NCBI RefSeq assembly: GCF_000003195.3
Contig: NC_012871.2
Span: 45,765,110-45,829,109 of the forward strand
DNA length: 64,000 bases
Source: Sorghum bicolor
Taxonomy: Eukaryota; Streptophyta; Magnoliopsida; Poales; Poaceae
Direction: 5' to 3'
Part shown: piece by piece, positions 35,841 to 61,321 of the stretch
How positions within the stretch are numbered: the stretch's first letter is position 1
How the letters are laid out: each line of letters begins with the position of its first letter
Translations under genes and position numbers: made by a program
The notes under the pieces: generated by a model
The model's database searches: none
The model's input: only the letters and a program-made list of their open reading frames with translations
Told to the model about the DNA's origin: nothing

Positions 35841-37073
35841 TGTTGACGGTCCTTAAGTATCAAATTTAATTATCAAATAAACAAAGAAAAGGATCCAAAT
35901 GAAATCAACATCTAGACTTAGGGTTTTATCTGACAGAATTCCACGAGTTTTGGTGTTTGTCTATTTCTGCCGGGGGTTATCAGGAAATAAGGAAGAAAGG
36001 CCCACATGTCGGGATTACATAGAGATATCAACCCACCGCGTAATTTTCTACCATCTAGAAGACTCCAGAAGCCACGAGACCGAAGCGGAGGCGAAACGGG
36101 GCCAGGCCCAGGGCGCCCGCCCTAAGGACCTGGGCGCCCGCCCACCTGTCGGGTCCAAACAGGACTCTCTTCGCACACGACGTTCCACCAACCTATTGGA
36201 TCCAGAATAACATAGTACCACCTCGCCTATCGACCCAAAAACGCATAGAAGGGGAGGACTATATAAGCAGACCCCCTCTGGCCCTGGAGAAGACAAGAAG
36301 TTATCATAGAGATTGAGGGGTGCCCTCGAAGGAAAACCTCTTCTCTAAATAATATTTCTTTTTAGGCTTAGCAACCAATGTAAAGTAGAAATAGATCTTC
36401 TAGTTTCTACTAGATTGAGAGAGATAGAGTGGAGGTGTGGATCGGAGGAAGGCCGGCCTGTCGGTGTCTACTCCGAGTTGTACCTACGGGATCAAGTCTC
36501 CTAACCCGAGGCTTGCTTCTAAGATTCTTCAGTAATTCGACTTCTAATACTAGTAAGTTCTTGTTTTATTGTTCTTTGGTTTATGAGTTTACTTTAATCC
36601 TCTTCCTGTTGAGTATTAGAGTAATCACTTGTTAGCGTAAACCTGGTGTTTAGGCTAGGGTACTCATAGATGTCCCCTGACTAGCTGGACCGTGGTAGTA
36701 GCGAGGAACGTGACATTTCCGAGTTACCTTTGTAGATCACATCTCGTTAGCAGGATGGGTAGGGTTATAGGTGCGGGTCGAACATCCTTTGTGTTGTCTA
36801 GATTCCGTGAGCCTCCCCAATAGAACAGTAGATCATCCTTACCAAGGTTAGAACGAGACTACGGTTGCAGTCTTCTCTATACATCACTCACATCGAGAGA
36901 CATTCTTTGTAGCCTAAAGGGGTAGTAGCAATAGATTTGGTTAGTCAGATGCACCCTTTCTCCCAGTGGTAAAAATATAAATACGATAACTCTGGATAAC
37001 CTCCCGGGTGAAATGCTCACCGATATCCGTGCGCTTGCGGATCATTTTCTAATTGCGTTACCAAATATCAACA
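35841..37073 (+). repeat. 5' LTR of element F
   Basis: 1233 bp, with TATATAA at 36260-36266. Its first 350 bases match the C-family LTR; the rest diverges in sequence but ends in the same GCGCTTGCGGATC block near the U5 end. Confidence 0.95.
36260..36266 (+). promoter_or_regulatory. TATA box of the F 5' LTR
   Basis: ACTATATAAGCAG sits about 420 bases into the LTR, a normal place for the U3/R promoter. The copy in the 3' LTR is at 43222-43228. Confidence 0.7.
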
Positions 37074-37081
37074 AGCATTTC

Positions 37082-37099
37082 TAGCGCCGTTGCCGGGGA
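37082..37099 (+). other. Primer binding site of element F (tRNA-Asp type)
   Basis: TAGCGCCGTTGCCGGGGA differs at one base from the tRNA-Asp complement. It lies eight bases after the LTR end. Confidence 0.85.
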
Positions 37100-37123
37100 G
37101 AAAGACGGTTTGCTGAGATAACT

Positions 37124-38119
37124 TTGAATCTTGCTATTATCTTGTATTATACTTTTATACTTTTATTCTTTTATCTTTTTATTTTTATCTTTATCGATAA
37201 CTCAAATTCCATACCTATTATTAAATTCTTTGCACCTTCGGAGACCAGCCATAGACCATGGGAGTCAACACGTTCTGCCCCTAATTTTGATCTGTGTCCG
37301 GAGTTGATTGCAATAGGTCAAAACCAACCCTTTTCTATAGCTGAGGTCCTATCTTTTAATCAAGAAGATAATGCACTTTTAGCTACACCTAGGGAATCTG
37401 TTAATCTTTTTATAAATTCTGGTTTAGACCTAGCCCTGCAAGACCATGTTTTTCCTAGATATTTTCACATTGGTCTTAATCATATAACCTTTGGTAGAGT
37501 CATTCTTTCTTTATCTATTAGTAAAGGAAGGTATGTCTTCATTTGTGGACATCCTTCTTGTACTAGCCTTCAAAGAATAATCTTAGAGATAGAGAAGGAA
37601 TCATCTCCCAGACGAGGAAAGGAAGTTTCAATAGCCGATTTCGAAACATTTCAGTCCCATGATTCAGCTATCCAACCCATCCTTGAGCTTAATAAATTCT
37701 ACTATGCTCTTTCTCTTGAACCTCCTGATAATCCTATGAATCTATCTAGACATCCCATGCATAAGAAGGAGGATCGAGAAGAGCAACATCAATGGCTAGA
37801 GGGCATTAAAAATCCATGTGCTATCACCATTGAATGGATAGATAAAACAAACTTGAGAGACAATCCTAGAGGAATTTTAAGCATTCATGAAGAATCATCC
37901 TTGGAGTTTGAGAATGAGAGAAACAACAATGAGCATAGAAGTTATTTCATAAATACCTCACCAAGTCCATGCTCATATGCAACATCTCCCCAATCAATTA
38001 GTCTCTCCAACATTACCACATTTGAGATCTCCAACCCCCTCTTCTTTTCTATTTATAAAAACTTTAAAAGGGCAGTTGTCGATGCATATGTCTATAATAA
38101 ATATTGCAGATCTCGTTGA
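37124..38119 (+). CDS. 331-codon open frame of unknown function in element F
   Basis: A long uninterrupted frame starts just after the primer site. I do not recognise the protein. It has no ATG near its start: the frame is open from the primer site and the first in-frame ATG is about 205 codons in (PMNLSRHPMHKK). The first 24 residues are strongly hydrophobic (TFILLFFYLFIFIFI), but this stretch is also what the T-rich leader common after the primer site in such elements would encode, so it may not be translated. The middle (RSAPNFDLCPELIAIGQNQP, HVFPRYFHIGLNHITFGRVI) looks like ordinary folded protein. Element C has no equivalent; its gag starts at this place instead. Translation would need splicing from a leader or a non-AUG start. 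A real retroelement ORF or a gene fragment are both possible. Confidence 0.5.
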   Translation: MNLAIILYYTFILLFFYLFIFIFIDNSNSIPIIKFFAPSETSHRPWESTRSAPNFDLCPELIAIGQNQPFSIAEVLSFNQEDNALLATPRESVNLFINSGLDLALQDHVFPRYFHIGLNHITFGRVILSLSISKGRYVFICGHPSCTSLQRIILEIEKESSPRRGKEVSIADFETFQSHDSAIQPILELNKFYYALSLEPPDNPMNLSRHPMHKKEDREEQHQWLEGIKNPCAITIEWIDKTNLRDNPRGILSIHEESSLEFENERNNNEHRSYFINTSPSPCSYATSPQSISLSNITTFEISNPLFFSIYKNFKRAVVDAYVYNKYCRSR

Positions 38120-39400
38120 GTTAATTGATGGTTCCCCAAGGACAAGCTTAGTGTCCTAAAACAAGCACTTCTAATTATTTGCAACATTGCCTTGTGTATT
38201 GAGCATATAAAGATAATTGTAGAAATATTCCTTCGGGTATTCTTGCCACTAACCTTTCTAGGATTGGAGTAAGAAGATCGGATGAATGACAAGCGCAAGG
38301 TATGCCCAACCAATCATCATGCAACATTAAATTAAATTCATTCAATCTTGAATTTTGCAAAATTCAAGCTTGGGGGAGTACTTTACATAAAACATCCTTT
38401 GCCATGTTGCTATGTTGGTTGTCCTTACCTTTGAGACATGCTCAATTTGTTAAATACTAATCACACTACTTCATCTCCACTTGAGTAGATCTCTATAAAA
38501 GCCATCATGCTACCTTTGTTTATCCTAGTAAGTGTTAGTTTGGAAGTACTGGTCACACTTCCAATGGCATTTAAATTAAGCGTGGTGCTTAGGTTAAATA
38601 GCCTTCCTTAATCTGATTAGACATGGAGTCTAGTTTGGTTACTGAACTAAAAACTGCTTGAGTAGATATTGGTATATTTTGTTGGACTAACCCCTGTAGG
38701 AAAACTTTCAATATCAACCTGGGAAGTCCTGAGATGCAAACTCATTAGAGATGAAGAAAGTGACACATGAAGTTTAACAATTTGCACAAGAAAGACGTAG
38801 CTCATAAGAGATGATTCATGGAGGGTGCCACAAACACGATGCACAACCGCTAAGAAAGGAAAGCTTCCACAAGGTGATACTGTACCATCACTCTTCAAGT
38901 AAGGTAACATCTTAAGGTACTTGACTAACACTTTTATAAGCTCCTCCTTGGTTCTGGCATTCACATAAATAAAGAGACAAACATGTATGATTTATAACTC
39001 CAAATTAACCAACTCAATTAATTCAACATGTTTAGTCCTTTAATCTTTGTTCTTAGTACTACCTTCGTGACCCCACACTCCTAATCATATAAGCTAAAGT
39101 ATTGCACATCCAATCTTTGGAAGATATAAACAAAACATAAATATAGATAGATTATCTTTCCATTAGGTTGAGCCATCTGATCTGACAAATGCTACACTCA
39201 TGATCCATCAACTTTGTCTTGCTCACTATGCTTAAGGTTAGAGAGGAACAAATACACTTTTGGTTCTGTTGGTGTTTTCCACCAACAGGGCCCATGCACT
39301 TGATCTCTACCTTGTCTCTATGAGCAGGAACACTTCGAGCATAATAGGAAGGAGTTTTACAACTCCTAGATTCCACCAAGTGAAGAACTAGGATCTACGA
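38120..39400 (+). other. Non-coding stretch of F with an internal polypurine-like motif
   Basis: No gene seen. At 38366-38380 AAGCTTGGGGGAGTA repeats the element's own polypurine tract. Downstream, 39000-39400 leads into the gag remnant. Confidence 0.6.
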
Positions 39401-40062
39401 GCACAAACACACTGGAGATACTAGACGCTCAGGCAATCACTGCCCTAAGATGCTTGAGGACGTGAACTACATCAACAACAATAACAACTATTACTACAAC
39501 TGTCCTCAACAACATCAAGGTTGGAATCAACAGAGGCCTAATTACTCAGAGAGGTGATCTAGGACGTCCCGTCATCCCGATCTCCATCGGCATGGTGGAC
39601 TTCCCAGAAGCACTCTGCGACTTTGGCTCCAGCGTCAACATTATGCCCAGGGTTGCAGATCGGACACTCAGTTTCCCAAAGGAAATATTGAAGAACCTCT
39701 GCGTCTGAGTTGATACCTTATACGCTCTAGCAAACTTCGTGGTGATAGAGACTGGTACTGAGGAGAGGGTACCCATCATCTTAGGGAGGCCATTCCTAAA
39801 CACCAGAGCTGTCATCTACGCTAATGCTGCCAAGATCAGTTTCTACATCAAGGGAGAGAAGGAGACTTTCCTTCAGGAACAAGACTACACAAATTTCAGA
39901 GCAATCCCGACATGAACCGAGGAAGAGGACCAACAGGAGGAACAGGAATAAGCAAATGTGGACCGAGTCAGCTAAGATGGTCACTGCAGTTCAAGGAGGT
40001 CAAGATCGTCGACTCAAGTCACCTTTCTTGATCAAGAAGGACGACCCTGGTGTTCCAAGAAT
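39401..40062 (+). pseudogene. gag 3' end and first retropepsin-like domain (PR1) of F
   Basis: It begins with a zinc-knuckle remnant (GRSGNHCP-like) and an Asn/Tyr-rich segment (NNNNYYYNCPQQHQGWNQ), then GRPVIPISIGMVDFPEALCDFGSSVNIMP. The catalytic triad is D-F-G rather than D-T/S-G; D-L-G or D-F-G variants are usual in Athila-like gag-proximal proteases. About 60 bases after the catalytic loop are missing compared with element C, and stops follow. VPIILGRPFLNT closes the domain, near 39775. Confidence 0.75.
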
Positions 40063-40620
40063 CGAATGCACAAACAATGGATACTCTTTTTAGAAGACAC
40101 TCTACGACACCGGATCTGACGACAACATAATGGCCGCAGTCACTTATCAGCTCCTGCATGGAACCATGCCCCTACAACCAAGATACATTCAGCTTCAAAT
40201 AATTTTCAGGTCATTGACATAGGAGAAGACGAGTATGATCCATCCACCATCCTTGGAAGACCGTTCCTAAACACTATCAAAGCCATTATCTATATTGGAA
40301 CCGGAGAAGTCCACATGCACTTCCCCTCTAAGAAGGTACGCCACTACTTTAATGATTCTAACTACATAGTTGAAGATTCTAAGCAGGTCAGGACAAGAAG
40401 AAGACAACGCAATCGCAACCAGAGGAGGCAAATCATCAAGGACGGGCGGGTAGACTACGAAGGAGAAGTGATAAGGACTGAAGACATACAACTTGAACAG
40501 AACTGTCCTGAGGAGACCGTAGCACCGAGTCAGGTGTGGAAAGAGAAGATAGTTATACACGAAGAGGAGGCACCGCCGGAACCACCGACTACGCCACCTA
40601 GCGAATCCCAGGACGACTGA
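40063..40620 (+). pseudogene. Second retropepsin-like domain (PR2) of F
   Basis: A stop after GYSF (40093) is followed by KTLYDTGSDDNIMAAVTYQLL with catalytic D-T-G. About 85 bases of the mid-domain are missing relative to C (after YIQLQ), then STILGRPFLNTIKAIIYIG and a basic, then acidic, C-terminal tail ending SESQDD at 40617. The tail is open for about 100 codons. It is clearly a paralogue of PR1 in tandem, not a repeat of the same sequence. Confidence 0.75.
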
Positions 40621-42787
40621 AAACACAAGGAGTCCCATTCGGAGGACTTAAAAACACCGAACGCCTTGCCAAGAGGTAAACTTGGTAGTTATCCTTTTCC
40701 TTTCAATTATTCAATTATAGTTTGCTTAGTTAATCAGGATTCATGCTATCTTGAAAAGAAAATAAAAATGCTAAAAAAATAGTAAGCCCCATGTGAGTAT
40801 GCTCATGGCATAAAACCCATAAGTACATTCACTGTGGTGGCATAAAAATAAAATAAATATTTTTCTGCTTTATAAAAACAAAAATATAAAAACAGGGATT
40901 AATATTTATTAAGGAGTCTCAACATGATAAAGGCTAGATATTTATGCTAACACTTAATCAGTTCCACAAGCTTTGTTGTCTATTTGAGCTCCACAGAATT
41001 TAAGAATCAAGAAGACTAGCAGACGGAGGACATTCTAATCGCTGTCAAAATACTGCTGACTTTCAAACACACCTCTGCCACCTGCTAGCTATATCAAGAG
41101 AAATTACGTCAAAATTCAGCTTGGGGGAGAGCACCCCCATTTATCTCGATAAGTATTTCTATCTATCCTTATACTTATACTATATTAGAATATAAATACA
41201 CATAACTATGAAAAACCAAATAAAGATTTTATGCTTATATATATTTTGCTTAGTATGTTTAATAAATAAATAAAGTGGCTATGCTAATCTGTATCTCATA
41301 AAACTTAAGCATGGATATGATGAATAGTTGCTCTGCCTAATTTGAAAATTTGAAGTTCTCTCTCAAGTTTAGATATAACTGTTATAATTTAAGGCTTGCT
41401 CTAGACCTAAACTTGTGGGATGAAAACTTGATCTGAAGTCTAAGTTGTTAACGGATACGATATGGGAAGGTTGAGCTGCTGTTTATCTATTCCTAGAGAT
41501 GCTAGAATTCTGGAGAATTTTATCTTTGAAAATCTTTAAAATGTTGCATGATGAGTTCCTGTATGATGAGAGTTTAAATTCCTACCACAGCCATATATAC
41601 ATGCTTGCTAGACCTTGAGCCACACATTTACTTTTTACTGCTTATGAGCATTGAGTGTGGTCAAGCTGTGTAGACCCTTAGGAGCTTGTCATGTGGTTAA
41701 AATCAAGATTCACTTGCACGTTCACTCATACATGCTACTTCTACTCTGGAAGTACCATCCACATATATCCACTCATTTCCATCTCCACATTCACCCGAAA
41801 TTATTCTACTCCTAATCCGGGAGAGAATAGCCAAAAACATTTTCCAATCCCTGTTATTCCCTGTGAAATAAATGCTCCAGTTATTTTGGTTACTACCACT
41901 TGCTACATTATTTCAGGAGATGAGTGCTCTAAAAAAAAGAGAGAAGAAGAGAAAGAAAAAAAAATATATATACGAGGAAATAAAAAGGGGCAAGTGCCCA
42001 GAACCTCAAAGAAAAGAAAAAGTGAGACGAGAGGTAAAAATGGACAAGTGTCCGACAATAGAATTAGGGGTGCAAGATACCCACCTGAGAGAAAAAAAAG
42101 AAGAGAGCATCTCATTCTCCTCATAAAGTTTCAAAAGCAAGGAAGGTATGTATCCCCTCAAAGAGCAAAAGTAGAATTAGACTTTCACCATTGTTATCTC
42201 CATCATCACCATACACCATTCACTCGCCACACATGCACATCTTGATTTGACTTATTGACTTGTTTCTCTGGATCCATGGTTTGACTATGCAATAAATGTC
42301 TTGTAAGTATGTATTAGCTGTCTCCCACCTATGAGCTCCAGATATCAGAACCTTATTAGAGTAGGGTGAGAGACAAGGCAACATCACTATGCCTCATACC
42401 AAAAATACCACATACTGTGAGAGAAGACATACATTACTGCCTTGGTAAGGATCCAGAAATACCACAAAAGAGAGATTTGAGAGAATCATACAAGGAATCT
42501 CTGAGTTTTATTTGAAAATCTGCAAAAACCCCAGAGCTATAGCTGATCAAGAATGAGAGACATGGCACCTGACTAGACTGTTCTATCTTTTAACCACTCA
42601 AGACAGAAGTGACGGTTACAAGTCCCATGGTGAAGGTAAAGTAAGTAAGTTTTAAGTCTTGACAGTTTAGTGTAACCCAGAGATGAGATCTTATTTAAAA
42701 GCATGTGTACCGTCAAATTTTTAAAGATATTGCAACTACTTATGATCCATAGCTGAGTCTATCCTTGCTCAGGGACGAGCAAGAGGT
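40621..42787 (+). other. 3' non-coding region of F
   Basis: It matches C's 3' region (58540-57283 and 26115-25276, minus). A second polypurine-like motif (CAGCTTGGGGGAGA) lies at 41117-41130. The bases around 41915-41935 are the unfilled equivalent of D's insertion site in C. No protein-coding gene is supported. Confidence 0.8.
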
Positions 42788-42802
42788 AAGCTTGGGGGAG
42801 TT
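42788..42802 (+). other. Polypurine tract of element F
   Basis: AAGCTTGGGGGAGTT directly precedes the 3' LTR start TGTTGACGG, identical to the tract of C. Confidence 0.9.
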
Positions 42803-44035
42803 TGTTGACGGTCCTTAAGTATCAAATTTAATTATCAAATAAACAAAGAAAAGGATCCAAATGAAATCAACATCTCGACTTAGGGTTTTATCTGACAGAA
42901 TTCCACGAGTTTTGGTGTTTGTTTATTTCTGCAGGGGGTTATCAGGAAATAAGGAAGAAAGGCCCACATGTCGGGATTACATAGAGATATCAACCCACCG
43001 CGCAATTTTCTACCATCTAGAAGACTCCAGAAGCCACGAGACCGAAGCGGAGGCGAAACGGGGCCAGGCCCAGCGCGCCCGCCCTAAGGACCTGGGCGCC
43101 CGCCCACCTGTCGGGTCCAAACAGGACTCTCTTCGCACACGACGTTTCACCAACCTATTGGATCCAGAATAACATAGTACCACCTCGCCTATCGACCCAA
43201 AAACGCATAGAAGGGGAGGACTATATAAGCAGACCCCCTCTGGCCCTGGAGAAGACAAGAAGTTATCATAGAGATTGAGGGGTGCCCTCGAAGGAAAACC
43301 TCTTCTCTAAATAATATTTCTTTTTAGGCTTAGCAACCAATGTAAAGTAGAAATAGATCTTCTAGTTTCTACTAGATTGAGAGAGATAGAGTGGAGGTGT
43401 GGATCGGAGGAAGGCCGGCCTGTCGGTGTCTACTCCGAGTTGTACCTACGGGATCAAGTCTCCTAACCCGAGGCTTGCTTCTAAGATTCTTCAGTAATTC
43501 GACTTCTAATACTAGTAAGTTCTTGTTTTATTGTTCTTTGGTTTATGAGTTTACTTTAATCCTCTTCCGGTTGAGTATTAGAGTAATCACTTGTTAGCGT
43601 AAACGTGGTGTTTAGGCTAGGGTACTCATAGATATCCCCTGACTAGCTGGACCGTGGTAGTAGCGAGGAACGTGACATTTCCGAGTTACCTTTGTAGATC
43701 ACATCTCGTTAGCAGGACGGGTAGGGTTATAGGTGCGGGTCGAACATCCTTTGTGTTGTCTAGATTCCGTGAGCCTCCCCAATAGAACAGTAGATCATCC
43801 TTACCAAGGTTAGAACGAGACTACGGTTGCAGTCTTCTCTATACATCACTCACATCGAGAGACATTCTTTGTAGCCTAAAGGGGTAGTAGCAATAGATTT
43901 GGTTAGTCAGATGCACCCTTTCTCCCAGTGGTAAAAATATAAATACGATAACTCTGGATAACCTCCCGGGTGAAATGCTCACCGATATCCATGCGCTTGC
44001 GGATCATTTTCTAATTGCGTTACCAAATATCAACA
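42803..44035 (+). repeat. 3' LTR of element F
   Basis: 1233 bp, the same length as the 5' LTR, ending TATCAACA, followed by CCCGG. Confidence 0.95.
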
Positions 44036-44280
44036 CCCGGATTGTTGACTCCCTACCAGTTTTGTCTGCTTGTTTTGAAGATTTTTCCACACAAAGAGTT
44101 GACGTGACGAGACCTTCTGACGGGATGTCAGATGGATGCATGAAAAGTTGCGCCTGGCAACTGTACAGCCGCCCTTTGCGCGGTTTGAGAAAAGGAAACC
44201 ATCAATTTGTACGAAAACTCCGCCGCATTAATTGTCGATAATTATTGAAAACCGAAACGTCGCGTCTGCCGTATGGCCCG

Positions 44281-44308
44281 CCCACTTCCCAAGAATGCGG
44301 GAAGTGGG
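44281..44308 (+). promoter_or_regulatory. Perfect 10-bp inverted repeat upstream of the antisense gene's TATA box
   Basis: CCCACTTCCC (44281-44290) and GGGAAGTGGG (44299-44308) are separated by eight bases, ending 17 bases before the TATA box. The symmetry suggests a protein binding site or hairpin. Function is unknown. Confidence 0.6.
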
Positions 44309-44325
44309 AGGGGTGAAGTTGCGGG

Positions 44326-44333
44326 TTATAAGA
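44326..44333 (+). promoter_or_regulatory. TATA box of the antisense gene in E
   Basis: GGGTTATAAGAGC, about 115 bases before the ATG, with a C/T-rich leader in between. This is a normal plant core-promoter layout and shows the gene does not rely on the LTR, which points the other way. Confidence 0.65.
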
Positions 44334-44444
44334 GCTCGACGGTTCCGCCTGTACTGCTTACCCTACCATTGCCTTCAAACCTTCGACTCTTGCCTCCTTC
44401 AATCACCTGCATCTTCCTAACTCAAATCCACTTCCACAACTCCA

Positions 44445-47400
44445 ATGGCGAAGAGCGACTCCAAGAAAAGGGCCGAGCTGATGGCCAAGGAGTGGAAGAA
44501 GTCCCGCAGCACCGCCAAGTCTCTCGGTGACCTCGTCGATATGGGGCTTCTGCACAGCCCGGAGCTCGGCGGCTGGAGAGCGCCGGAAGGAGAGAGCTTC
44601 CCCGACCCCCGTGCCGGTGAGATCGTGGTGTTCGAAGACTTCGTTAAGAGGGGTTTTGGGGTTCCTGTTCATCCCTTTCTTCAGGGTCTTCTTCTTTATT
44701 ATGAGATCGGGATTTGCAATCTGCACCCGAACTCAATCCTTCTTATTTCTACTTTTATCCATTTGTGCGAAGCCTATGTTGGCATAGAGCCGCACTTCGA
44801 CCTTTTCCGCTATCTTTTTTGTTTAAGAAAGAAGAGAGCAGTTGGAGGCTCCAAGGTTGCAGGTGGAGTATACCTCAACCTTCGCGACGGAATGAAAACC
44901 GCTACCTGCACTGTCCATGGAACACTTCCCTGACTGAATGGTACAGGAAGTGGTTCTACATCAGGGAGGAACCGGGCAGCTCCACGTTCTGCGACGTGGG
45001 ATACATCCCTGAGAAGAGGGTGAGCTGGACCGACCGCCCAGAGTTCGACGGTCAAGTGGCGGACCTCATGAAGCTGATCGACTGGTCGCGCCTGGAGGGG
45101 CTTGGCGTGGTCGGCAACTTCATTTGTCGTCGGGTGATGCCCTGTCAGAAGAGGGTGCACTCGGCGTACGAGTATGCCGGAAGCGTGGACCCGACCAGGA
45201 TGCGACCTGAAATCTAGGAGAAGGCGGAGGTACAGCAGCTGCTAAACGAACTGTTCAACTTCGTGGACGGAGGCTTCATCCATGGCAGTGATCGGGTGCA
45301 AGCCTTCAAGTTGGGGCGACCAAAGCCTAAGGTATGTTATTGATTACTTCGCTTTAGCATCTGTATATTGTTTGCAGCTAACTTATCTTTGTTACTTTTG
45401 CAGATCGGAGATGTCGACCGGTGCACAGTGTACGTATCGCTAGCACCAGGAATGGAGAATCCTGCGGGAGAAGATCCGCCGGAAGAAGACGCTGCTCGGT
45501 GTACTCGCTACACCAGCAGTGAGGAGGACCAGGCCCGCCCCATCCCGACCACCGAGGATAGAGTGGCGGGGAAAAGGCCAATGGCCGTGGATCCGTCACC
45601 GGCACCGACACTGCCGGCAGAGAGCAGCCGAGCGCCAAAGCGCCGTCGGTTTGTTCGGATCGACGACGACGAGGAGGAGGAGGAGGCCGTACCGTCGTTG
45701 GTCCGGAGGCCTCATAGCCGTCCGGACAGCGTGCCGGCCACTGCTGATCGGGTGGCCAGCGACCCTCCTGCGCCTCGCGTGGAGGAGTTAGGGGCACAGG
45801 TGCCAATCGGCCGGGCAAGAAGGAGGTTCACCGCGGCCCACCGTCGATCGGACCTGTAAATGTTCGACTTACGTATTTTGGCCATTTTTTTTAGCTGTTG
45901 TTGAAAATATCGCTCTTGTTATGTAGCGCGGCGTCGGACGTCAACCCTGACCAGGCCGCAGAACAGGGGACGGCCGCTCCTGTTGCCGCTGCTGAAGACG
46001 CCGCACCGCAGGTCACAGGGCATCCTGCAGCCGCGGCGGGCACCGAGGACCAATCTGCCCCGACGAGTGCCGCGCCGAGCACTCAGCCGAGGGGTGAGGA
46101 GGCAACAGGGACCCCTCCCCTGAGTACTATTGCAGAGGAGGGGAGCAGAGTCCCGACTCCTCCAGCCGAAGAAGGGAGGGTGCCGACACCGCCCCGAGCA
46201 GGGGCTTCTTCGCCCGTGGGCTCCCCTGGCCCAGACCAGGGACCAGTGATGCCCTCGACCGCAGCCGGAGGCAGTGCGGTGAACGAGGAGCCCCGGGAGG
46301 CCTCCGATGACGACGTGGAGGAGATCCAGGGTCGTCCTCGTGATGGTCGCCAGCACGTCTATGTGTGGCGCCAACGCGGGGACCACTTTATTGGACACGA
46401 GGAGCTCGCGGAGACGGAGGAGGCCGCGAGGGTGGAGCGCGCGGCTAAGCGCCTCGTGGACGAGGTTAAGGTAGGTGGTCCTCTATGTTGCTTGGATAAC
46501 TTTGTGCAGTGTTCCCGTATTCGACATGTGTTCTTTTCGCAGGGTGCAATGCGAACGGTGAAGTACCGAAAACAGTGCTTTGACCAGATCGAAGGAATTG
46601 TGGCCGAGAATAAGGCCTTGTCCGCGGAGGTAGACCGGCTGCGGTCGGAGGTTGGGGAGAAGGTGGCCGAGATGAATGCCCAGGAGGAGCATCATCTCGA
46701 GCTTACCCGTCGCTTGGCCGACCAGTACCGGCAGCGAGAAGGTTAGTCACGCGCTCCGAGCAGCTTTGTGTAGCTGTGTAGTTTGCTTTACTGACCGGGT
46801 TATGATTCACGTAGACTTGGAGGAGGAGGTGGTGTGCCTCCGACAGGAGAAGGAGCAGCTCAGCCAAGAGCTTGCCGGTGCGCTGGAGTCCAGGCGCCGA
46901 GCGGGGGAGGAGTTGGGTCGGAAGGACCGGGAGTTATCTGGTAATACGTGCCACCTCGTTATCTACCGCTTGTCGCCGTTTTGTTTTTTGATATGTCGAG
47001 AATAACGTCCTGCTTGATTTGCAGTGCTCAAGGTGAACGCCAAGAAGCACCTGGATGAGCTGATCAAGGACCGGGACTCCTGGAAGGTCAATTGTTGTAA
47101 GATCTGGAAAGGAGTATCCCCGGTCCTGGATCTGATCAGTCCCGAGCTGCCGGAGAGCCAGCCCCGCGCGCCGAGGTTTACTCCGGTGGAGAAGGCGCAA
47201 CGGGCGTGGCACTGGCTTCAGCAATTTGTGAAGGACACCGGGGAGTTTGCTGGCGCGCATGTCCTTAGCATGGTGCACGCCCACTACCCCCTGGTCGACT
47301 TGACCAGGCTGGAGAAGGGGTACCCCAAGGAGGTCGGCCCGCAGGAGGCGGACGAGCTTCGGGGGGTCTGCTGGACTTGTCGTCGACGGTGATCGGCGAC

Positions 47401-47589
47401 ATCAATCTATGCGGAACGGCCACTCCCCCCGACGAGCCAGGTTCAAACAGGTCGGCCAGGGAGCTGTCAGGCGCGTCTATTGCGGGAGATGGGCGGTCGA
47501 CGCCTGCGGTCTCGACCAGCCAGGCGCCGGTGGCCCCGACCCCTTCGTCCGGGCAGCAGGGCCAGGCGGGTGATCAGCCCGAGCAGTAG
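44445..47589 (+). CDS. Antisense spliced gene of the Tat-like element (Transposase_28-like, coiled coil)
   Basis: Proposed exons are 44445-45331, 45404-45855, 45927-46470, 46543-46741, 46815-46940 and 47025-47589. All introns are GT-AG, 71 to 84 bases long, and all phases join. Exon 1 has the N-terminal Lys-rich start (MAKSDSKKRAELMAKEWKKS), then FEDFVKRGFGVPVHPFLQGLL, EIGICNLHPNSILLIS and KWFYIREEPGSSTF. This is the order seen in 'putative gypsy type transposon' proteins (PF04195, Transposase_28). Exons 2-3 are acidic and Pro/Ala-rich with a nuclear-signal-like APKRRRFVRI. Exons 4-5 are coiled coil (IVAENKALSAEVDRLRSEV). Exon 6 is helical and ends Ser/Pro/Gln-rich. Breaks: a frameshift near 44897, a TAG after MRPEI at 45217 and a frameshift in a G6 run at 47361-47366. 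It is opposite to gag-protease and meets it tail to tail. Biochemical role is unknown. Confidence 0.75.
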
Positions 47590-47669
47590 GCCAATAGGGT
47601 AGTCTGTAGGAAATAGACTAGCGTCTGCCCGTTAGGGTATTTATTGTAAACTTTGTATGTAAAGTTTGT

Positions 47670-47675
47670 AATAAA
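47670..47675 (+). promoter_or_regulatory. Poly(A) signal of the antisense gene
   Basis: AATAAA lies 81 bases after the proposed stop, preceded by TTGTATGTAAAG-like near-upstream sequence. It ends before the convergent gag-protease frame at 47864. Confidence 0.65.
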
Positions 47676-47863
47676 GTTTGCTTTTGTCATGACTGTTATT
47701 TTGAGCGCTGTACAATTATCTGAGTGACGTGCCACTGTATTTGACTTTGTAGTCGCTAAGAGCTTCCGGTGCAGAAGGCTTTCCGAGTTCTGCGTGTAAC
47801 AAAGTATGGGCAAAAAATAGAAACCTTTATTATTGACAGCTATAAGATATTTACAAGCGAAAG

Positions 47864-50754
47864 TTAGTAGAACTTATGGATAAAATCGTCGCAGTAGTGT
47901 GGGACTGCCATGAACTTTGTCAGCGATGGTCGGCCTAGTATAGCGTGGTAGGTCCCGTCGATGTCCGCGACCACAAAGTTGATGAACTCTGTCCGAAAGT
48001 GGTCGGGTGTGCCGAATTGGACAGGCAATGTTATCTGTCCGAGGGGCACTGAACTCTGACCTGGCAAAACCCCCCAGAATTGAGCATCGTAGGGTTTTAG
48101 TTGTGCAGGAGATATTTTGAGGGCGGGCAGACTGTTGCGGAAGAGGATGTCGATGGAGCTTCCCCCGTCCACGAGCACGCGCTCGAATCTGATGCTGTTG
48201 ATGCAAGGGTCCAGGATCAGAGGGAAACGACCTGGCTCTGGGATAGCGGCCCACTGATCTTTCCTGCTGAATGAGATCTCCCTGTGCGACCACGGGGGAA
48301 ATTTTGGGTCTGCGATCAACCCGTCCGTGCTGTCTATGTTGAGGCAGGCTCTCTTTAATAGCTTTCTCTCTCGCTTAGATTCAATGGAGACCTTTCCCCC
48401 GAAGATGGAGTGGACCACGTCAGTGGGGCTGACGTATTGGTGTCGGGGGTCCCTATCTTGGTCCTCGTCCTCGTCTTCGTGGTCGTGCCCGTCTCGCTTG
48501 CCATTTTTCTTGGTGGCGTCATCTTGGGCGGCCCGCCGTGTGTAGATGCTTTTGAGGACGCGACACTCCTCCATGGTATGATTAGACTTTGGATGTAGTT
48601 GGCACGGTCCCTTCAACGTTTTGTTGTAGTCTTCTTGGTAGTCCCACCGCCCGTTGGGACGCTTGACCGTATTCACTTCATGGTCGTAGTCGCGGGGGGC
48701 GCTTTCCTCTGAAATTGTCACGATTGTCGCGGCGCCGATCCCAACCTTCTCTGTGATCGCGGTTCTCGGGGCGGCGGTGGTTCCTGTTGTCGTAGCGACC
48801 GTGACCGTCATCTCGCCGGGGAAGCTGGTCGGGACCTCTCGCATCGTCTCGGATTAGTTTCTCTGCGTCGTCGGCATCGGCGTAATTTTTAGCCGTGGCG
48901 AGGAGCTCCGCCACCGTTGTTGGCCGTTTGCGCAATAGCTTGTTCCTCAGCGCTTCATGGAAACGCAGGCCCTTGATGAAGGCAGAGATGGCCTCGTCGT
49001 GAGAAATCTTCGGGATCTTAAGGCGCATATCCGAGAATCGTCGAATGTAATCGCGTAGAGGTTCATTCTTCCTGTCCCTTATCCTTTCGAGGTCATACTT
49101 GTTTCCAGGCTGCTCGCATGTGGCGATGAAGTTGTCGATGAAAGCCTGGCATAGCTCTTCCCAAGAGTCGAAGGAGTCCTCGGGCAAGCCAAGGAGCCAC
49201 AGATGACCAGCCTGGTCGAGGACTACAGGGAAGCAGTTGGCCATGACGTGCTCATCTCCCACTGCTGATCGGACGACAATTTCATAGAGAGTGATCCAGT
49301 TCTCTGGATTTTCCTTGCCGTCGTATTTTTTAAGTTTTTCGAGCTTAAAATTGCGGGGCCACATGACTGGCGGAGGTGTGAGGAGAACTGTCTTAGGCAC
49401 GGGGGGCCGTGCGTTGCATCGTACTCGATACGGCGCAGGTTTTCGTGGACTGCTCTCTCTGTGGCGCGCCTGTTGATGCGATCCCGGGCATCTTTGGGAG
49501 GGATGTTGTATCGGAGATCCCTGTGCTGATTTACTTTTTGACTGCGCCTGCGGTTCTGCTCGCGGTGACCGTCAGTATCCCGACCACCATCGTTACGCCG
49601 TGAATCTTTTCGATGGTTGTCGGCAGAGCGGCTGTGGTGACGCCTGCTGGGAGGCGGTGAGGTCCGGCTACGATTAGTCTGGTCGGAGGTGGCTTCCGTA
49701 TAAGAGACGTCCTGGACTCTCTTGAGCAGAGTGGCTGTCTGTCCCATTGCGGCAATCAGGTGCGCTCGGACGCTGGTTCGGACTCCCTGGCACTCAGGGG
49801 TATCAGGGAGCCGATCTAGATTAGCCATGGCGACAGCCACGTTGGCGCTTGGTGTTTTGTAGACTGGCTGGTCCCCGACCATGTCAAAAGCGTCGCTGAG
49901 GTTATGCGGTGGAATTTGTCGTTGCTCATCTGCGCGTCGTCGGGCGCGATCGGCGTTGCGCTGCTCGCGGAGCTGCCTCTGCTCGTCCGTTTCTCCATCA
50001 ACGACCGGCTCATCGGTGCTGACGTTGAAAACAATGTCCCCTCGCCGGGGGGGGGGAATACCGGGAAACGAGGGAAACCCGGAGGGTGTGAAGGCAAATC
50101 CACGTCGTAGTCCTCATCTTTGGAGTTTATAACTTCGGTGGGGACGGAGCCGGTGCTCGAGTTAGTGCTAGAAGCCTGGCCGTCCCGTAGCTCTCGGATC
50201 GTCACCATGTGGACGTAGTGGCGAGCAGGTCGATCGTTCCTTTTCGGCGGCCAATCCGCCTTGCTGAAAACGGATTGGATGTGCCGTGAGTAGAGAGAGG
50301 CCGGGTTGTTCAGGCCACAAGGATAATCTTCCTCCTTGAGCTTGACGGACCGTCCTGAGGGAGTTGAGGTTATCGTCAGAGACGTTCCCAGCCGTTCGTG
50401 TGTAACGACACGAGTTGGCCGGCGAGATTTGAAAAAATCCGTTGGAGCGGCTTGATCAGGCTGGCGCAGGATTCCATCTACTAGTTGGGAGGCTTCAAGT
50501 AGCTTGGAATCAGCGTGATCAAGCGCTTGGAGAAGGTCCGAGCAGTCGATCTTCTTTCCCTTGTAGAGCGGGAACGGTGGTCGGACGCTCGGTGCCGCCA
50601 CCCGAGTGGTCGGAGACGATGTGATCTCAGATTGGATCTGAGTTTCTTTCGAAACCGTGGTAGTGAGGCCACCGCTGCACGTCATCCACGTGATCTGGCC
50701 GACGGTGAACGTGAGGCCTTCGGGCACAGTTGCGGAAGCTGGGATTGTGACCAT
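47864..50754 (-). pseudogene. gag and protease-like domain of element E, three frameshifts
   Basis: The start ATG at 50754 follows the primer site by about 30 bases (MVTIPASATVPEG). The N-terminal part runs to a G10 run (50047-50056). It continues in another frame with MVGDQPVYKTPS and an Arg-rich segment to a G6 run (49401-49406). The gag core follows (FKLEKLKKYDGKENPENWIT, FIATCEQPGNKYDLERIRD, LRDYIRRFSDMR) to a G6 run (48694-48699). The last part has a degenerate knuckle (CQLHPKSNHTMEEC) and a retropepsin-like domain (RVLVDGGSSIDILF, ILGRPSLTKF) ending at 47864. Reverse transcriptase and integrase are absent. D-G-G in place of D-S/T-G is usual for this lineage. Confidence 0.85.
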
Positions 50755-50782
50755 CTTGTTCGCCGGAGAAGTTGCACGCACA

Positions 50783-50801
50783 CCCCCTACCTGGCGCGCC
50801 A
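50783..50801 (-). other. Primer binding site of element E (tRNA-Arg type)
   Basis: The minus strand reads TGGCGCGCCAGGTAGGGGG, one base from the LTR end. This primer site is characteristic of grass Tat-lineage elements. Confidence 0.85.
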
Positions 50802-50802
50802 C

Positions 50803-51259
50803 TGTCGACGAAAGCTAGTCGGCAGTCCACCTTGGGGTATACCCTCGGTAGTAGTTTATCGGTAGACGGTGCGCGAACTATGAACTCGATGGTGACGCAA
50901 GACACAGACAAGCTTTTTATCCAGGTTCGGCCGCCGAGTTGGCGTAATACCTACGTCCTGCGTCTGATTGTATTGGATTGTGTTGAGAGCATCTATCCTA
51001 GGGGGGTCCCTTGCCCCTCCTTATATAGTCTGGAGGGCAGGGTTACAGATCCGGAAACTAATCCTAGTCGGTTACAATTGCCATAGATAGTTCGATATCA
51101 ATTCCTATTCTAACCGACCAGAATCCTGCTTGATCTCCACGTCTTGTTTCCTTGCGCAAAACTCCAAGCTATCGGATCAAGCCTCGAGCTCGTCTCGTAA
51201 TGGGCCAAGCCTCCTGGCCCAAGTCTAGCCGTAAGGGTATAGGGGTTTATACCCCCACA
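50803..51259 (-). repeat. 5' LTR of element E
   Basis: 457 bp; TATATAA at 51021-51027 (minus). Followed on the right by CATAC, the second copy of the target duplication. Confidence 0.95.
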
Positions 51260-51575: not shown

Positions 51576-52619
51576 CTACTCGCTATGGTCACTGTCCATG
51601 TCGGAGCCCTCCTCGTCCTCATCTCCACTAGCAGCTGCTCCCATCTTGGGATCCTCATCCATCTCGTCCTCAGAGTCTAGCTCAGCTGCTCCAGGCAGGT
51701 GGTGAGGGTGGAGCTGGTTATGCAGCTGGTGGATCTCCTCATGCAAGTTCTCATTGTACTCCTCAGCATTAGCTAGCTGCTGCTCAAGCTCTAGCTGTCG
51801 AGCCCTCAAAGTGTCCTCCTCATGCCAGGCTTCATTCCTCTGACCAAGCACATGGACTAGCATGCGCTCGCAGTTCCTATGAGCAGTAGTCACCCTGTCT
51901 CTCTGCTCTCGCACTGCAAGCAGGTCCTGGCTCAGCTCACTGTTCTTCTGGACTGCCTGGTCCCTCTCTTGTGTCACGCAGGCCAACTCTGACTGCAGCC
52001 TCTCAACCTCCGTGTCGAACTCACGCTGCAACTGGCGCTTCTCATCCTGGACTGTGAGAAGAGATCCGGACAAGCGACCCAAACAACGCTCCAGGCCTCC
52101 ATAGGTCTTCATCAAGGCGTACATAGCACTCATAGCTGCGCTGTCACTGTGCTGGTCCTCATCCGCACTCCTCTCTAGAGCGTTCACCTCGGACTGATCC
52201 CACACCGAAGTGTAGGGGTCACCCCGGGGAAACACCCCAGCGAAGGCGTGGGCCAACTCCTGTGGAAACCTCGCCATGAGGACTCTCAGTACTGCGAAAG
52301 CTGCCCTGCTGGCACCGTGGAAAGGCGTGGTACCTCGGGACTCGTACACCCAGCCGCCCCAAGCAGGGTCACCTCCACTGGTAGGGACAACTGCCTCGAT
52401 CCCCACCAGTGTCTCGTCACCAAGAGGCTCCTTATCCCAATAGTAGCGAGGCTCCCTTCCTTCAGGATACCCCATCGAACTGAGCACCCTCCAAAGCAAA
52501 GTGGGCATCCCAAACTCCTCCAGGAACTTGCTCTTATGTCGTGAGCTCCTAGCTGCCAACGGATGGCGAGGGGCCCGCCCACCAGTGGACTTGCGAGCGG
52601 TGAGCCTAGTGCGTGCCAT
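51576..52619 (-). CDS. Extra 5' ORF of chromovirus D with a histone H3-tail-like N-terminus
   Basis: An intact 347-codon frame with ATG at 52619. Directly after Met the protein reads ARTRLTARKSTGGRAPRHPL, colinear with the histone H3 tail. Aligned to H3, residues 1-3, 6-13, 15-17, 20-21 and 26 agree. K9 and S10 (ARKS) are kept, while K4, K14, K18, K23 and K27 are replaced (R, R, H, R, H). No histone fold follows. The body has FLEEFGMPTLLWRVLSSMGY and WDKEPLGDETLVGIEAVVP, a long coiled coil at about residues 185-300, and a Glu/Asp/Ser-rich acidic tail from about 310. It lies between the 5' LTR and gag, on the element's sense strand. It has no stop or frameshift although gag-pol has five breaks. 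Expression and localisation are unknown; chromatin mimicry is my inference. H3-like extra ORFs in grass chromoviruses have, as I recall, been reported. Confidence 0.85.
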   Translation of the reverse strand: MARTRLTARKSTGGRAPRHPLAARSSRHKSKFLEEFGMPTLLWRVLSSMGYPEGREPRYYWDKEPLGDETLVGIEAVVPTSGGDPAWGGWVYESRGTTPFHGASRAAFAVLRVLMARFPQELAHAFAGVFPRGDPYTSVWDQSEVNALERSADEDQHSDSAAMSAMYALMKTYGGLERCLGRLSGSLLTVQDEKRQLQREFDTEVERLQSELACVTQERDQAVQKNSELSQDLLAVREQRDRVTTAHRNCERMLVHVLGQRNEAWHEEDTLRARQLELEQQLANAEEYNENLHEEIHQLHNQLHPHHLPGAAELDSEDEMDEDPKMGAAASGDEDEEGSDMDSDHSE

Positions 52620-53387
52620 CTGCTGCAAATGGAATACCTTGGTTAAGATCGAGGATTACCTTTAATTATTTTATTTAGAATTGGGACAGATTAAATTAAG
52701 GGGGAAAGTAAGCAATGATATGAAATGATCATGATGCAAAGGTTAACACTAAGCGGTATATGCGGTGGCACACAGCGTTCTCTCATAACGTAACTAGCGT
52801 TCTAAGCGAGAACGTGGTTAGTGTACCTGCAGAAAACTCATTTCAGCCCACCCACAGTATGATTATGCAGGACATGAATTTAAAGCTATACACCCCACAT
52901 ACACAGACACCCGTCCATGCATATGACGTGTTGCTACCCACATCATCGCCCTAATGACGGTATCGCCACTCAGGACGGAATTCCCAACATGCGGTACTGT
53001 TCCCAAACACACCAAAACATGTGTGCATGACACAGCACCTAACAACACTCCCCTAGACCGGCAGTATATCCGGTCATGCTCTCACAGCTCCCACTTACCG
53101 TGGCGTAGAGGAAAAATTGATCCATACATTACCATTCAAATGAATGGTACTCATACTATTGCACGCCGTATGAGCGACGAAATAGAAATATGATGCATTA
53201 ACCCCCAAGTCAGTACTTAACTAGCCACCTTAGAGTCCTTAACTGGGCATAAAGGATATGACCATGGCACACTAGATAGTTTTCCAAAACTTAGTTTAAC
53301 ACCTTGATCATTATTAATTAATAAAATCTTGTATTAAACCAGTTTAGATTTTGTTTAGAACGTACTTATGAACAGTAACTCGCTAAA
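52620..53387 (-). other. 5' leader of element D
   Basis: Non-coding on the minus strand between the primer site and the H3-like ORF. Just before the ORF a GGTAATCC donor-like site (about 52660) and a CCATTTGCAG acceptor-like site (about 52624) could define a short intron, which I cannot confirm. Confidence 0.5.
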
Positions 53388-53403
53388 TCTTGCTCCGATA
53401 CCA
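53388..53403 (-). other. Primer binding site of element D (tRNA-Met type)
   Basis: The minus strand reads TGGTATCGGAGCAAGA, the initiator tRNA-Met complement with one change, two bases from the LTR end. Confidence 0.85.
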
Positions 53404-53405
53404 GC

Positions 53406-56400
53406 TGTAATAGAACCGACCAAATTATAAGAGATTAAGCCTAATAGTGACCATTTGCATAGTCAAACCATCGAGCTTAAGCCCATATAATCCCGGTAGT
53501 CCGTGAAATCTCAAAGGATTTCAAACCACATATCGTACATACAGCCAAGATCGTAATAAGTTTAGCGGTCGCCATCCACAAATACATCCCGATTACAACA
53601 TTCATAAAATACATCGGAGTTCTTAAAGTTATTACAAACCAAGTTCTCAGGTAGCGGAAGCTTCATAGTTCAAAAATACAACACACACACTTAGTCTGAT
53701 ACAGTTCCATAATTCGGTCATTCCCACAAAAGCAAAAGAGAAGACGGAGTGACCATCGCCCTTGGTCTAGTCATCACCCATGGCTGGGTACAGACAGAGG
53801 ATGCAATAACCATAGTACATTTGACCATCTGCAAAACAACATGGGAGTAGAACCCTGAGTACGAGAATGTACTCAGCTAGACTTACCCGTCATAAATTAA
53901 AATAAAGACTCTTCAAGGATCATGAAGGCTATATAGTGGGGTAGCTGACAACCTTTTTGCATAACTGCAAGATCCTATTAACATGCCCTACACAAAATCT
54001 TTATTCTTTTAATTTGCTCAAGTTGACAGTATCATTACCTATTATCTAGGTTTGCACCTGCACTATTACAAGCAAGTATAGTGATATGATGGTACCTCAT
54101 CATAGCATTCATAAAACCCTTTATCATTATAACCCAAGTGTTCAATAGTCCTTACTACGAGGACAGGGCTCGTGTCAAGTGCTCACTATCCAGGAGTGAT
54201 GGCGATTCGAATCGATTTCTAACCAGCTGGCGAGGTATTCCCTACACAAACCACACTCACTGATCAAGTGAGCTACAGATCACCGTATTACACTATCCAG
54301 GACCAATTCGCGGGTTCGGCAGGCACCGCCAGTACCCGAGGACCGTTCCCGCGACCGAGGTATCCAAGGTATACCAAGTTTGCGCGCCGCGCCCTCGTCG
54401 TTCTCCTCAACCATCACCAATACAGCGCATGGCGGCTCGATTCCCGGCCCGGATAGTGTTCAGGCTTCGCGGTCGGAACGACTTATCCTTCCAGCTAAGT
54501 GTGGGGCATGCGTTCAACATGACAAGAGGGCCGTCAATGATCGATCCTTAATCGACACAGGCAGGGGCACTATAGTCAACCCACCATAAGACCCTACCCG
54601 GTCTTCAATTCCATTTCACATTTGGTTATTCTTTTCCCAAAGCAATCACTGCTTAATCAAGCAGGTATCCACCTATATCTCGCAGGTGACAGCAAATCAC
54701 CCGACTTCTACCGGACTAAGCAAGCTAAGCATAGACTCCGTACCTATCTACATAGGACAAGGTAGATAAATGAGGGGTGATATCAAGGAGTACCAATGCA
54801 TCAACGGTATCAACCAACTCCTATCACCTAAATGCAATATAATAGAACAAGCATAATATATCATGTAAGTTAGCGAGAATAGGGAGACTTAGAATGCTCC
54901 GGGGCTTGCCTTTCTCAAACGTGCTGGGCCGGTGATCCGGACACTCCTGTAGCTCTTCTCCGGGTTCCGGTGCTTCCGGAGGTTCCTGCTCCTGAATCTC
55001 CTCTGGCTCCTCGAGTCCCACCTCGTTCTCTTGTGAGCCTGTATGATGCATGTGTGCTCATGAGTGGAGTGCGGGATGCCCGGGGTACATTGCTCATGCG
55101 ATAGAATACCATATGACTATGACATGATGTAGGGAGGATTTATGTGAGCATTTAAAAGGTAGTCTACATCATCCAAGAATCATGCAATTGAATTAAACAC
55201 ATATTGCATTCTCTTCTATAAATTGCCTTCAAGTGTAACCAACAACTCACATGATGCTTCAAAGATACACCAAACCCCTTTTTATTCTATTTAACCCATA
55301 AATAACAATTCATAATTTCTTTATTCATTTTTAGACCCCTCAAAATTTGCATGCAGTTCTATTCATCAATAAATTCCACAAAAATTACAGGAGACTACCA
55401 GTGAAGCATAAAGTCTACTACAAATTTTTCATAATTTTTGGATACTTATTTTGAGCTACAAAATCACAAGATTAATTAACAAGGGCAATTACAATTACTC
55501 TACTGTGGTATAAGTGTCAAACAATAGATTTCATATTTTTATAATTTGCCTAATATCATAGGAAACACCCACAAAAATTTCCAGATTAATTGCATGATCC
55601 AAATAATTATTAAAAATAATGTGTAGCAATATTTTCCCAGTGATTTAACACACATGCAGAGCCAACAAAACAAGTTTCACATTTTTCTGAGCCATACTTT
55701 AATTACTATGCATTTCTCAAGTTTAGCAAAAGCATGGATTAAATATATTCTTATAGAAAAAGTGTTCAAACATGACATGCAATTACATCAAACTGTAGAT
55801 CTGAAAATAAAGAGCACACCAAACTTTATTTCATCAGATTTGGAGCTGTAGAACTCAAGATTTGGATTTTACAAGTTTTAAATCGATTTCTGGAAAACAT
55901 TTTCTGAAAATCAAATCGAAATCGGGATCAAAAACGCTAAAGACACCCAGATCTACACCCAACGGGGTCCCCCTACGACTGACAGTGGGCCTCAGACCCC
56001 ACTGGTCAGCGAGACCGAGAGGGAGGGCACCTCCGACGAGCAGATCTCGCCGGCGGTGAGGTTCCCGGCCACGGGGTGAGCACCATCGTGCTCCCCGCAG
56101 CGAGGCGCACCCAGCGGTACCCTCGGATTGGCCGGAGGATGGCCGGAGCACCTCCGACGAGCATGCATGGCGGCACGGCGGCGCTGCTCGCCGTGGCCAG
56201 GCTGCTCTGGTGCGGTAGAACATGCGCAAGGGCTCCTCCGAGCTTCCCCGTCGAACTACGGATCTAACGCGCCAAAAAGCAAGCGAAACGAGGTGAAAAC
56301 GAGCGAGGTTCGACGCGGCGGAGCTCTCCGGCGAGGTCGGAGCAACTCCGACGAGCGATTCACGGCGTTCGGCGGGCTCTCACCTCGGTAGAGCGTTCGC

Positions 56401-57277
56401 AGGAGCTTACCGCGACGACGGTGAGTGCGCTGGTGGTTTTGGCGTCGTGGTTGGGGCACTGGCGTGGCCGGCGGTGAGCAGCGGAGCTGCTCCGGCAATG
56501 GCGCTACGGCGGAGCTCCTACGACTGCGGTTGCGCTCGCGAGCGGAGGGAGGAGGGAGAGAGGCGCGGGCGACAGAGCGAATGGAGCGGCCTGGGAGCTC
56601 GGGCCGGCGTCCCGACCAGGTGAAGTCGGTCGGCCGCGGCGCGCCCATCGCCGGCGTACGGCCGCCACGTGGCCGTCGCTGGCTGGGACGAGGCGGGCGT
56701 CCGCGCACGGGAGAGAGGGGGAGGGGGAGGCAGGCCGGGCCGCTGTCTGGGCCGAAAGGGAGGCGGGGTTGGCCCAGCAGCGCCTGCCCCCTTTTCCATT
56801 TTTTTTTTGAATTTCTTTTCTCACATCCTTTTCTAAATTCATTTGGACCATTTTAAAGTCATTTCCACCTTTTTCCCCCAACAACAAAGTTGTTCCAAAA
56901 CAAAAACCCTACAACTTTGTTTTAATAAGCAAGACCAAATTCCAAATAGAATTTGAATTACAGATTAAAACTAGTTCTAGGTTTTCAAATAAATTCATTT
57001 TGGGGATTTTTGTATAAATTCCATTTCTCAAATTCTATTGCTCCAAAAATTACACAAAAATATTCTTAAACCTTCTTACACATAAATCAACCTATCTTGA
57101 ATATTCCACAATTTTAGAAGCAAGCATCATATTTTTAACATATTTAAAGCACATGGTATAAAACACATAAAATCACATTTTGGGATGAAATGACATGCTC
57201 ATGATGCTATGCTTGATGAGAATGCTTATGAATGTTTTGATAAGGCTAAGTGCATGCTTAACACCTTGGGTGTTACA
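53406..57277 (-). repeat. 5' LTR of element D
   Basis: 3872 bp, starting TGTAACACCC at 57277. It is shorter than the 3' LTR mainly through one internal deletion near 55617. Confidence 0.93.
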
Positions 57278-57282
57278 CTCAT

Positions 57283-61317: not shown

Positions 61318-61321
61318 AAAA

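Follow-up and report, generated by a model that had tools for sequence, protein, structure and literature searches.

A histone H3-like N-terminus on the 5' extra open reading frame of a Tekay-like chromovirus in Sorghum bicolor

Introduction

Why does an open reading frame (ORF) in a sorghum retrotransposon begin like the tail of histone H3? The frame, here called ORF0, was found in a 64,000-nucleotide stretch of the Sorghum bicolor genome (contig NC_012871.2, positions 45,765,110 to 45,829,109; hereafter the window), where it sits between the 5' long terminal repeat (LTR) and gag of a minus-strand Tekay-like chromovirus. Its predicted product consists, in order, of an H3-like tail, a domain resembling a double-stranded RNA-binding domain (dsRBD), a coiled coil and an acidic end. 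Extra ORFs are common in plant LTR retrotransposons and mostly have no assigned function, and ORF0 offers a testable handle at each end, namely an H3-register N-terminus and a fold predicted to be shared with silencing proteins.

The explanation favoured here, at a probability of roughly 35%, is that ORF0 represents the 5' extra gene carried by a grass Tekay-type chromovirus and that its product mimics the H3 tail within the H3K9 pathway, which may help the element to deal with host silencing. The comparisons of sequences described below indicate that the N-terminus is in H3 register and that the frame is under purifying selection.

Results and Discussion

ORF0 starts as a histone H3 tail

A preliminary description, made from the window alone, had reported a frame at 51576..52619 that starts as an H3 tail and keeps only K9. 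The coordinates are correct and the strand is the minus strand; the first plus-strand frame over the same interval contains 7 stops. The 347-residue translation opens with MARTRLTARKSTGGRAPRHPLAARSSRHKSK, the N-terminus is MARTRLTARKSTGGRAPRH, and the first ATG of the frame encodes the Met preceding ARTRLTARKSTGG, upstream of which the frame is open for just 12 more codons.

The start of ORF0 is colinear with H3 residues 1–28. A phmmer search of the PDB with the first 61 residues returned 129 sequences at E≤0.01 (best E 3e-5), and the 60 matches listed were H3 peptides, H3 proteins or variants, Cse4 and H3/CENP-A chimaeras, aligned from residue 1 or 2 and reaching residue 32 at most. This places the tail, in register, with histone H3, and alignments of this kind indicate that the match is not due to chance. 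Against the H3 tail, 16 of 21 residues are identical at positions 1–21. The H3-like start is therefore confirmed, as are the substitutions listed for the window copy, in which K9 is kept and K4, K14, K18, K23 and K27 are replaced by R, R, H, R and H, respectively. However, lysines stand at positions 28 and 30 (RHKSK), immediately beyond the H3-like stretch, in 20 of 20 genomic copies, though not in P0012, a long relative described below, and the statement that only K9 remains is thus limited to positions 1–27. K28 could be the equivalent of K27 displaced by one residue.

Relatives and conservation of the tail

A protein search with ORF0 found 42 relatives, and a short relative used as the query found 239, of which 120 were listed. 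The sources were ena, jgi and lgn, probably representing plant DNA in environmental assemblies, and one Miscanthus protein was present in NCBI/UniRef. Searches of viral contigs and genome contigs found no relative, and a protein search with residues 1–60 alone returned three fragments only. P0012 represents the long form, with 51% overall identity to ORF0 and the tail ARRRLTAHKSTGGRVPRHQLA. A short sister form (P0027–P0040, P0042 and others), ~194 amino acids (aa) if complete, has the tail and the coil and no middle domain; a typical tail is ARTKRTARKSAGGRAPRHRLA. Nine long relatives start at an internal Met (MPTLLW), so that the tail region is not included. In P0043, a Miscanthus floridulus protein, an integrase end is fused with the coil and acidic tail of ORF0; this protein is perhaps a gene model spanning pieces of the element.

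An N-terminus was present in 40 of 148 proteins, the window copy included, and a pattern in which position 9 was left free retrieved 36, all within the 40. The H3 register from residue 1 is identical in all 40. Position 9 is K in 39 and N in one, so that an H3-like segment with a modifiable lysine, as in known histone mimics, is found almost throughout. At position 4, 37 have K and 3 have R; position 14 is R in 40/40 and position 18 is H in 38/40, while K is found at positions 23 and 27 in 0/40, position 23 being mostly Arg. A1, T6, A7, S10, G13 and L20 are near-constant (37–40/40).

Retention of K9 across families, which the preliminary description had named as support for its reading, is borne out by these counts and by the genomic copies considered below. 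Its selective retention is not, as the short form keeps K4 as often as K9 (37/38 each), and K9 is not singled out from K4 in that form. 'Only K9 kept' describes positions 1–27 of the window family and was rejected as a rule for the family at large. K14R, K18H and the loss of K23 and K27, being common to the families, may represent one ancestral change rather than repeated selective loss.

Ten protein pairs were compared, seven across families and three within the short form. In all seven cross-family pairs the tail (positions 1–21; 13–17 of 21 identical) is better conserved than the rest of the protein (34–61%), though once barely (62% versus 61%). In the three pairs within the short form the tail has 13–15 of 21 residues identical versus 79–85% for the rest; the tail changes, largely at Arg codons, would fit decay of methylated C.

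Genomic copies and selection

The genome (709 Mb, 846 contigs) was searched for ORF0, and the element was found to be high-copy. Of 117 places scored, including that of the window, 102 have no internal stop; however, as these are only the best-scoring part of 3282 candidates, intactness is overstated. When P0012 was used as the query in this genome, 123 places with 51–53% identity were found, the best-ranked being places of the ORF0 family, and no second family was seen. A 1345-aa frame at C7:41976777 was rejected, as an assembly gap (N) had been read through.

For the analysis of selection, 30 copies were picked on residues 1–61, changes were counted over residues 62–347, and the window copy was added. 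One stop each was present in 9 of the 30. Changes common to several sequences were 75 synonymous versus 20 nonsynonymous, whereas those in one sequence only were 69.5 versus 96.5. Such a contrast would be expected where source elements evolve under purifying selection while their inserted copies are free to decay. The ratio of nonsynonymous to synonymous differences per site (pN/pS) is 0.12 among the 30 copies. The window copy, from a more distant subfamily, has pS 0.22 and pN 0.028 (ratio 0.13). For the tail, pN/pS is 0.18 in 20 copies, a biased sample consisting of the best 20 by protein score; in these, the K9 codon varies between AAG and AAA only, and at position 18 there are 13 His and 7 Arg. 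The ORF0 frame thus appears to be under purifying selection within the one family obtained as DNA. The contrast drawn earlier between an intact ORF0 and a gag-pol with five breaks also holds in outline: ORF0 is an open frame of 347 aa and gag-pol is broken, but the five separate open pieces between 34681 and 30036 imply a minimum of four breaks, to which a nested insertion where gag begins must be added.

Predicted structure of the ORF0 product

In the AlphaFold2 model, the dsRBD-like domain of ORF0 is followed by a long coiled coil, and the C-terminal end is acidic. Residues 1–26 have pLDDT <50, and the tail is probably disordered. A second model, of a homologue with 39% identity, has the same architecture, and the alpha-beta-beta-beta-alpha order of the dsRBD fold is present in both. 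For each model most of the 50 VIA rows listed were dsRBD entries, and the best Foldseek E values were only 0.065 and 0.0075. Among Pfam hits to E 10, the whole ORF0 protein gave no histone match, and its matches were rejected as coiled-coil noise below the cut-off. The models thus argue for a body without a histone fold, having a dsRBD-like domain and a long helix instead. The preliminary description, which gave the body as a coiled coil plus acidic tail and not a histone fold, was correct but incomplete, as the modelled domain at residues 37–118 was omitted.

No match to Pfam dsrm was found at E≤10 for three domain sequences. GPxH and KKxAK are RNA-contact motifs of dsRBDs, and neither was seen on inspection of the homologue alignment, in which helix 2 of the domain mostly opens with T-P-x-E/H-G-A and no GPxH occurs between strands 1 and 2. 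With these motifs absent, the modelled domain looks more like the partner-binding kind, and is perhaps of that type. Known partner-binding dsRBDs (DRB7.2, DCL4 dsRBD2, TRBP dsRBD3 and Staufen dsRBD5) share 10–18% identity with it in the listed rows, with no match at the sequence level.

Integrase chromodomain

The integrase piece gave a weak match to Pfam Chromo (E 9.4e-4; 19.5 bits, under the 25.1 cut-off), and its end aligns with the solved chromodomain-like chain 2m2l (E 6.5e-4) and with Clr4 (E 0.016). The residues that we take to form the methyl-lysine cage are D, W and H, and the aligned solved chromodomains are aromatic at the D and H sites. A type II chromodomain without a full aromatic cage is characteristic of Tekay, and the architecture of the element as read from its sequence (long LTRs, a 5' ORF and this chromodomain type) is that of the Tekay clade. 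Seed-plant and Tekay chromodomains are described as lacking a full H3K9me cage in two papers (PMC6317226, PMC3350952), the second of which gives the chromo-box motif of Tekay as lost except for V43 and W45. As the cage is incomplete, the chromodomain of the element is a poor candidate reader of the ORF0 tail.

Leader and start codon

The leader between the 5' LTR and ORF0 was aligned in 50 copies, comprising the window and L002–L050 (L001, the window's own place, and L051–L054 were left out). Of its 21 upstream ATGs, 18 are kept in at least 36 of the 50 leaders. This number of upstream ATGs would be unusual for a translated first ORF unless the leader is spliced or shunted. A candidate donor, GTAAGT, at leader position 307 is present in 48/50 leaders, and 49/50 have a candidate acceptor, GCAG, that ends 3 nt upstream of the ORF0 ATG. 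However, the identical-hexamer count over the leader has a mean of 33.6 and a median of 42 of 50, so that the pair is only suggestive of an intron. Such a putative intron would bring the ORF0 ATG close to the beginning of an exon. Many short-form proteins continue upstream in frame as NFLLQ-M, an extension that would suit a pyrimidine-rich acceptor. Given the 21 upstream ATGs and the conserved possible 3' splice site, the ORF0 Met is a candidate start.

Copy L052 (C20:430000-433200) has the 5' LTR end and ORF0 of the ORF0 family, with ~0.9 kb of leader that does not match that of the window copy. The mismatch begins ~11 nt before the ORF0 ATG, pointing to a leader swap or another subfamily.

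Known systems and earlier reports

In the grass Tekay/Del elements Retrosat2, RIRE3, RIRE8, FRetro3, ZMsat2, Sorsat2 and Sb7, an ORF lies between the 5' LTR and gag, as here, and the LTRs of Retrosat2, RIRE3 and RIRE8 are ~3 kb or more, long LTRs being found also in the window element. In Poaceae chromoviruses studied by Steinbauerova et al. in 2011 (Genetica 139:1543), part of the extra ORFs are reportedly H3-similar. These elements resemble the window element in host family, 5' position and partial H3 similarity, and the similarity is reported to have been read as capture of cellular gene sequence.

The ORF0 of Retrosat2 and its homologues, including sorghum Sorsat2, has been suggested to encode metabolic enzymes, and the word histone is not used in that report (PMC3485330). 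Another paper makes no mention of histones (PMC7264820). The 5' ORF proteins of maize Tekay and sorghum Sb7 have been assigned a DRBM-like structure, with a long C-terminal helix in Sb7, and a predicted nuclear localisation; viral suppressors are mentioned, while histones are nowhere named in the text (PMC11728184). Judging by these descriptions, Sb7 or Sorsat2 is presumably of the same family as the window ORF0.

Influenza NS1 and SARS-CoV-2 ORF8 are viral histone mimics that, like ORF0, have a short H3-like segment with a modifiable lysine. ORF0 differs in that the H3 register is at the very N-terminus, extends over ~28 residues and is found in a retrotransposon. The ORF8 case is itself disputed (PMC10833455). 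Among the matches listed for histone mimics with retrotransposons or viruses, no histone-tail mimic in a retrotransposon was found. As far as has been seen, one selected protein with both a tail in H3 register (14, 18 and 23 not lysine) and a dsRBD-like domain is new, as apparently is the sister form with the tail and coil but without that domain.

The anti-silencing protein of the Vandal family, VANC, is a precedent by function and belongs to a DNA transposon, unlike ORF0. Vandal-family proteins exemplify transposon genes whose products act against silencing by the host (PMC11728184).

Proposed role and alternatives

If ORF0 is a mimic acting in the H3K9 pathway, removal of the Met would leave a coiled-coil oligomer displaying several copies of the H3 tail, with Arg at 14 and 23, His or Arg at 18, and K9 (and K4 in the sister form) still modifiable. 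As positions 14, 18 and 23 are not lysine, there would be no lysine acetylation or methylation at these sites, and in the nucleus the tail would resemble a deacetylated, heterochromatin-type H3 tail. It could then bind, or be methylated by, components of the H3K9 pathway (SUVH/KYP writers, CMT3-type readers), titrating or bridging the pathway, while the dsRBD-like domain might attach to RNA or to DRB or Dicer-like proteins. Overall, silencing of the element would be blunted or redirected. A tail that is methylated or bound would constitute a histone-tail mimic in a retrotransposon. The observation made in the preliminary description is real, and its interpretation is supported in part, namely for a selected ORF with an H3-like N-terminus in which K9 is kept across families; roles as a decoy, recruiter or tether are hypotheses.

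The H3 tail may instead derive from a single capture of cellular H3 sequence and be kept only as a basic, flexible segment for nucleic-acid binding or nuclear import, in which K9 is not special. This reading comes next, and is only slightly less likely than the favoured one. With Arg at position 14 and, mostly, at 23, and with His or Arg at 18, an actual or potential positive charge is kept although the lysine is gone; the short form retains K4 and K9 equally; and the low-confidence tail of the model is probably disordered. However, charge does not account for the uncharged A1, T6, A7, S10, G13 and L20 being as constant as the charged residues, or for a register from residue 1 that is the same in 40/40 N-termini.

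An extended form of mimicry in the H3K9 pathway would make ORF0 a two-pronged anti-silencing protein. Oligomeric H3 tails, unacetylatable at 14, 18 and 23, in which K9 is the principal site left to modify within residues 1–27, would soak up or capture the H3K9 methylation loop, and a partner-type dsRBD would dock on the DRB/Dicer-like machinery. This combination is rather doubtful as a whole; if it is true, the two arms of transposon silencing would both be reached by a single protein.

A role as a heterochromatin tether, in which the tail recruits readers of the H3 tail or H3K9me, guides the integration complex and replaces the cage-less chromodomain, appears improbable. It would suit a chromodomain that is without two cage aromatics, in keeping with PMC6317226 and PMC3350952, and it has been suggested that extra-ORF proteins may shape the insertion preference of Tekay (PMC11728184). 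However, there is no sign of the ORF0 product entering particles.

Less probable again is that ORF0 suppresses RNA silencing by binding double-stranded RNA, as do some plant viral suppressors, with the H3-like tail incidental. The fold in the models would fit, and a link to silencing is raised in PMC11728184. Against this, the three domain sequences have no Pfam dsrm match, the GPxH and KKxAK contacts are not seen in the alignment, and the short form is without the domain yet keeps the tail and coil. Finally, that the chromodomain of the element binds methylated K9 of the ORF0 tail, a pairing proposed in the preliminary description, is very hard to credit and has been dropped, as one element does code for both parts but D and H occupy the first and third cage positions with only the W kept, and two papers give seed-plant and Tekay chromodomains as without the full cage (PMC6317226, PMC3350952) and the Tekay chromo-box as lost but for V43 and W45 (PMC3350952).

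The host element and its surroundings

The features of the element are given in Table 1. The LTR pair aligns in two blocks, of 96.9% and 98.0% identity, and a target site duplication (TSD), ATGAG, flanks the element at 57278-57282 and 26116-26120. The order gag, protease, reverse transcriptase, RNase H, integrase between LTRs with a TSD is that of Ty3/gypsy elements. The primer binding site is presumably Met-tRNA-like.

Table 1. Features of the ORF0 element in the window
Feature	Position	Strand	Basis or remark
ORF0 (5' extra ORF), 347 aa + stop	51576..52619	-	Open frame, genome copies, apparent purifying selection
Met + H3-like N-terminal tail (H3 positions 1-28)	52533..52619	-	phmmer against PDB, H3 E 3e-5
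dsRBD-like alpha-beta-beta-beta-alpha domain, residues ~37-118	52266..52511	-	Predicted structure
Long helix / coiled coil, residues 161-303	51711..52139	-	Most blocks pLDDT 90-97; related sequence in short sister form
Acidic C-terminal tail, residues 304-347	51579..51710	-	Sequence
Leader, 786 nt, 21 upstream ATGs	52620..53405	-	Aligned leaders
Primer binding site TGGTATCGGAGC	53392..53403	-	End inspection
5' LTR (TGTAACACCC...TTACA)	53406..57277	-	Self-BLAST and end inspection
3' LTR	26121..30045	-	Self-BLAST and end inspection
gag, protease, reverse transcriptase, RNase H, integrase	30036..34531	-	Five broken open pieces; Pfam per piece
Integrase C-terminal chromodomain	30096..30248	-	Weak Pfam Chromo match; two of three cage aromatics absent
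Nested later Ty3-type insertion, ~457-bp LTRs (34534-34990, 50803-51259)	34534..51259	-	TSD CATAC

The LTRs of the nested insertion are 99.3% identical over a 459-bp match, and a gag match was found at 49571-48681 on the minus strand. As this element inserted at the start of gag, ORF0 and gag are ~17 kb apart in the window copy; in copy L053 the gag frame begins ~0.3 kb past ORF0. Inside the nested insertion is a plus-strand element at 35841-44035 with direct repeats (35841-37073 and 42803-44035; 99.1% identical) that are probably LTRs. Between the nested elements, 44445-47392 contains plus-strand open frames, including ones of 162, 282, 109 and 122 aa. An older minus-strand element (23673-26109 and 57276-62916), with a gag-like frame at 61240-59606, has apparently been split by the ORF0 element.
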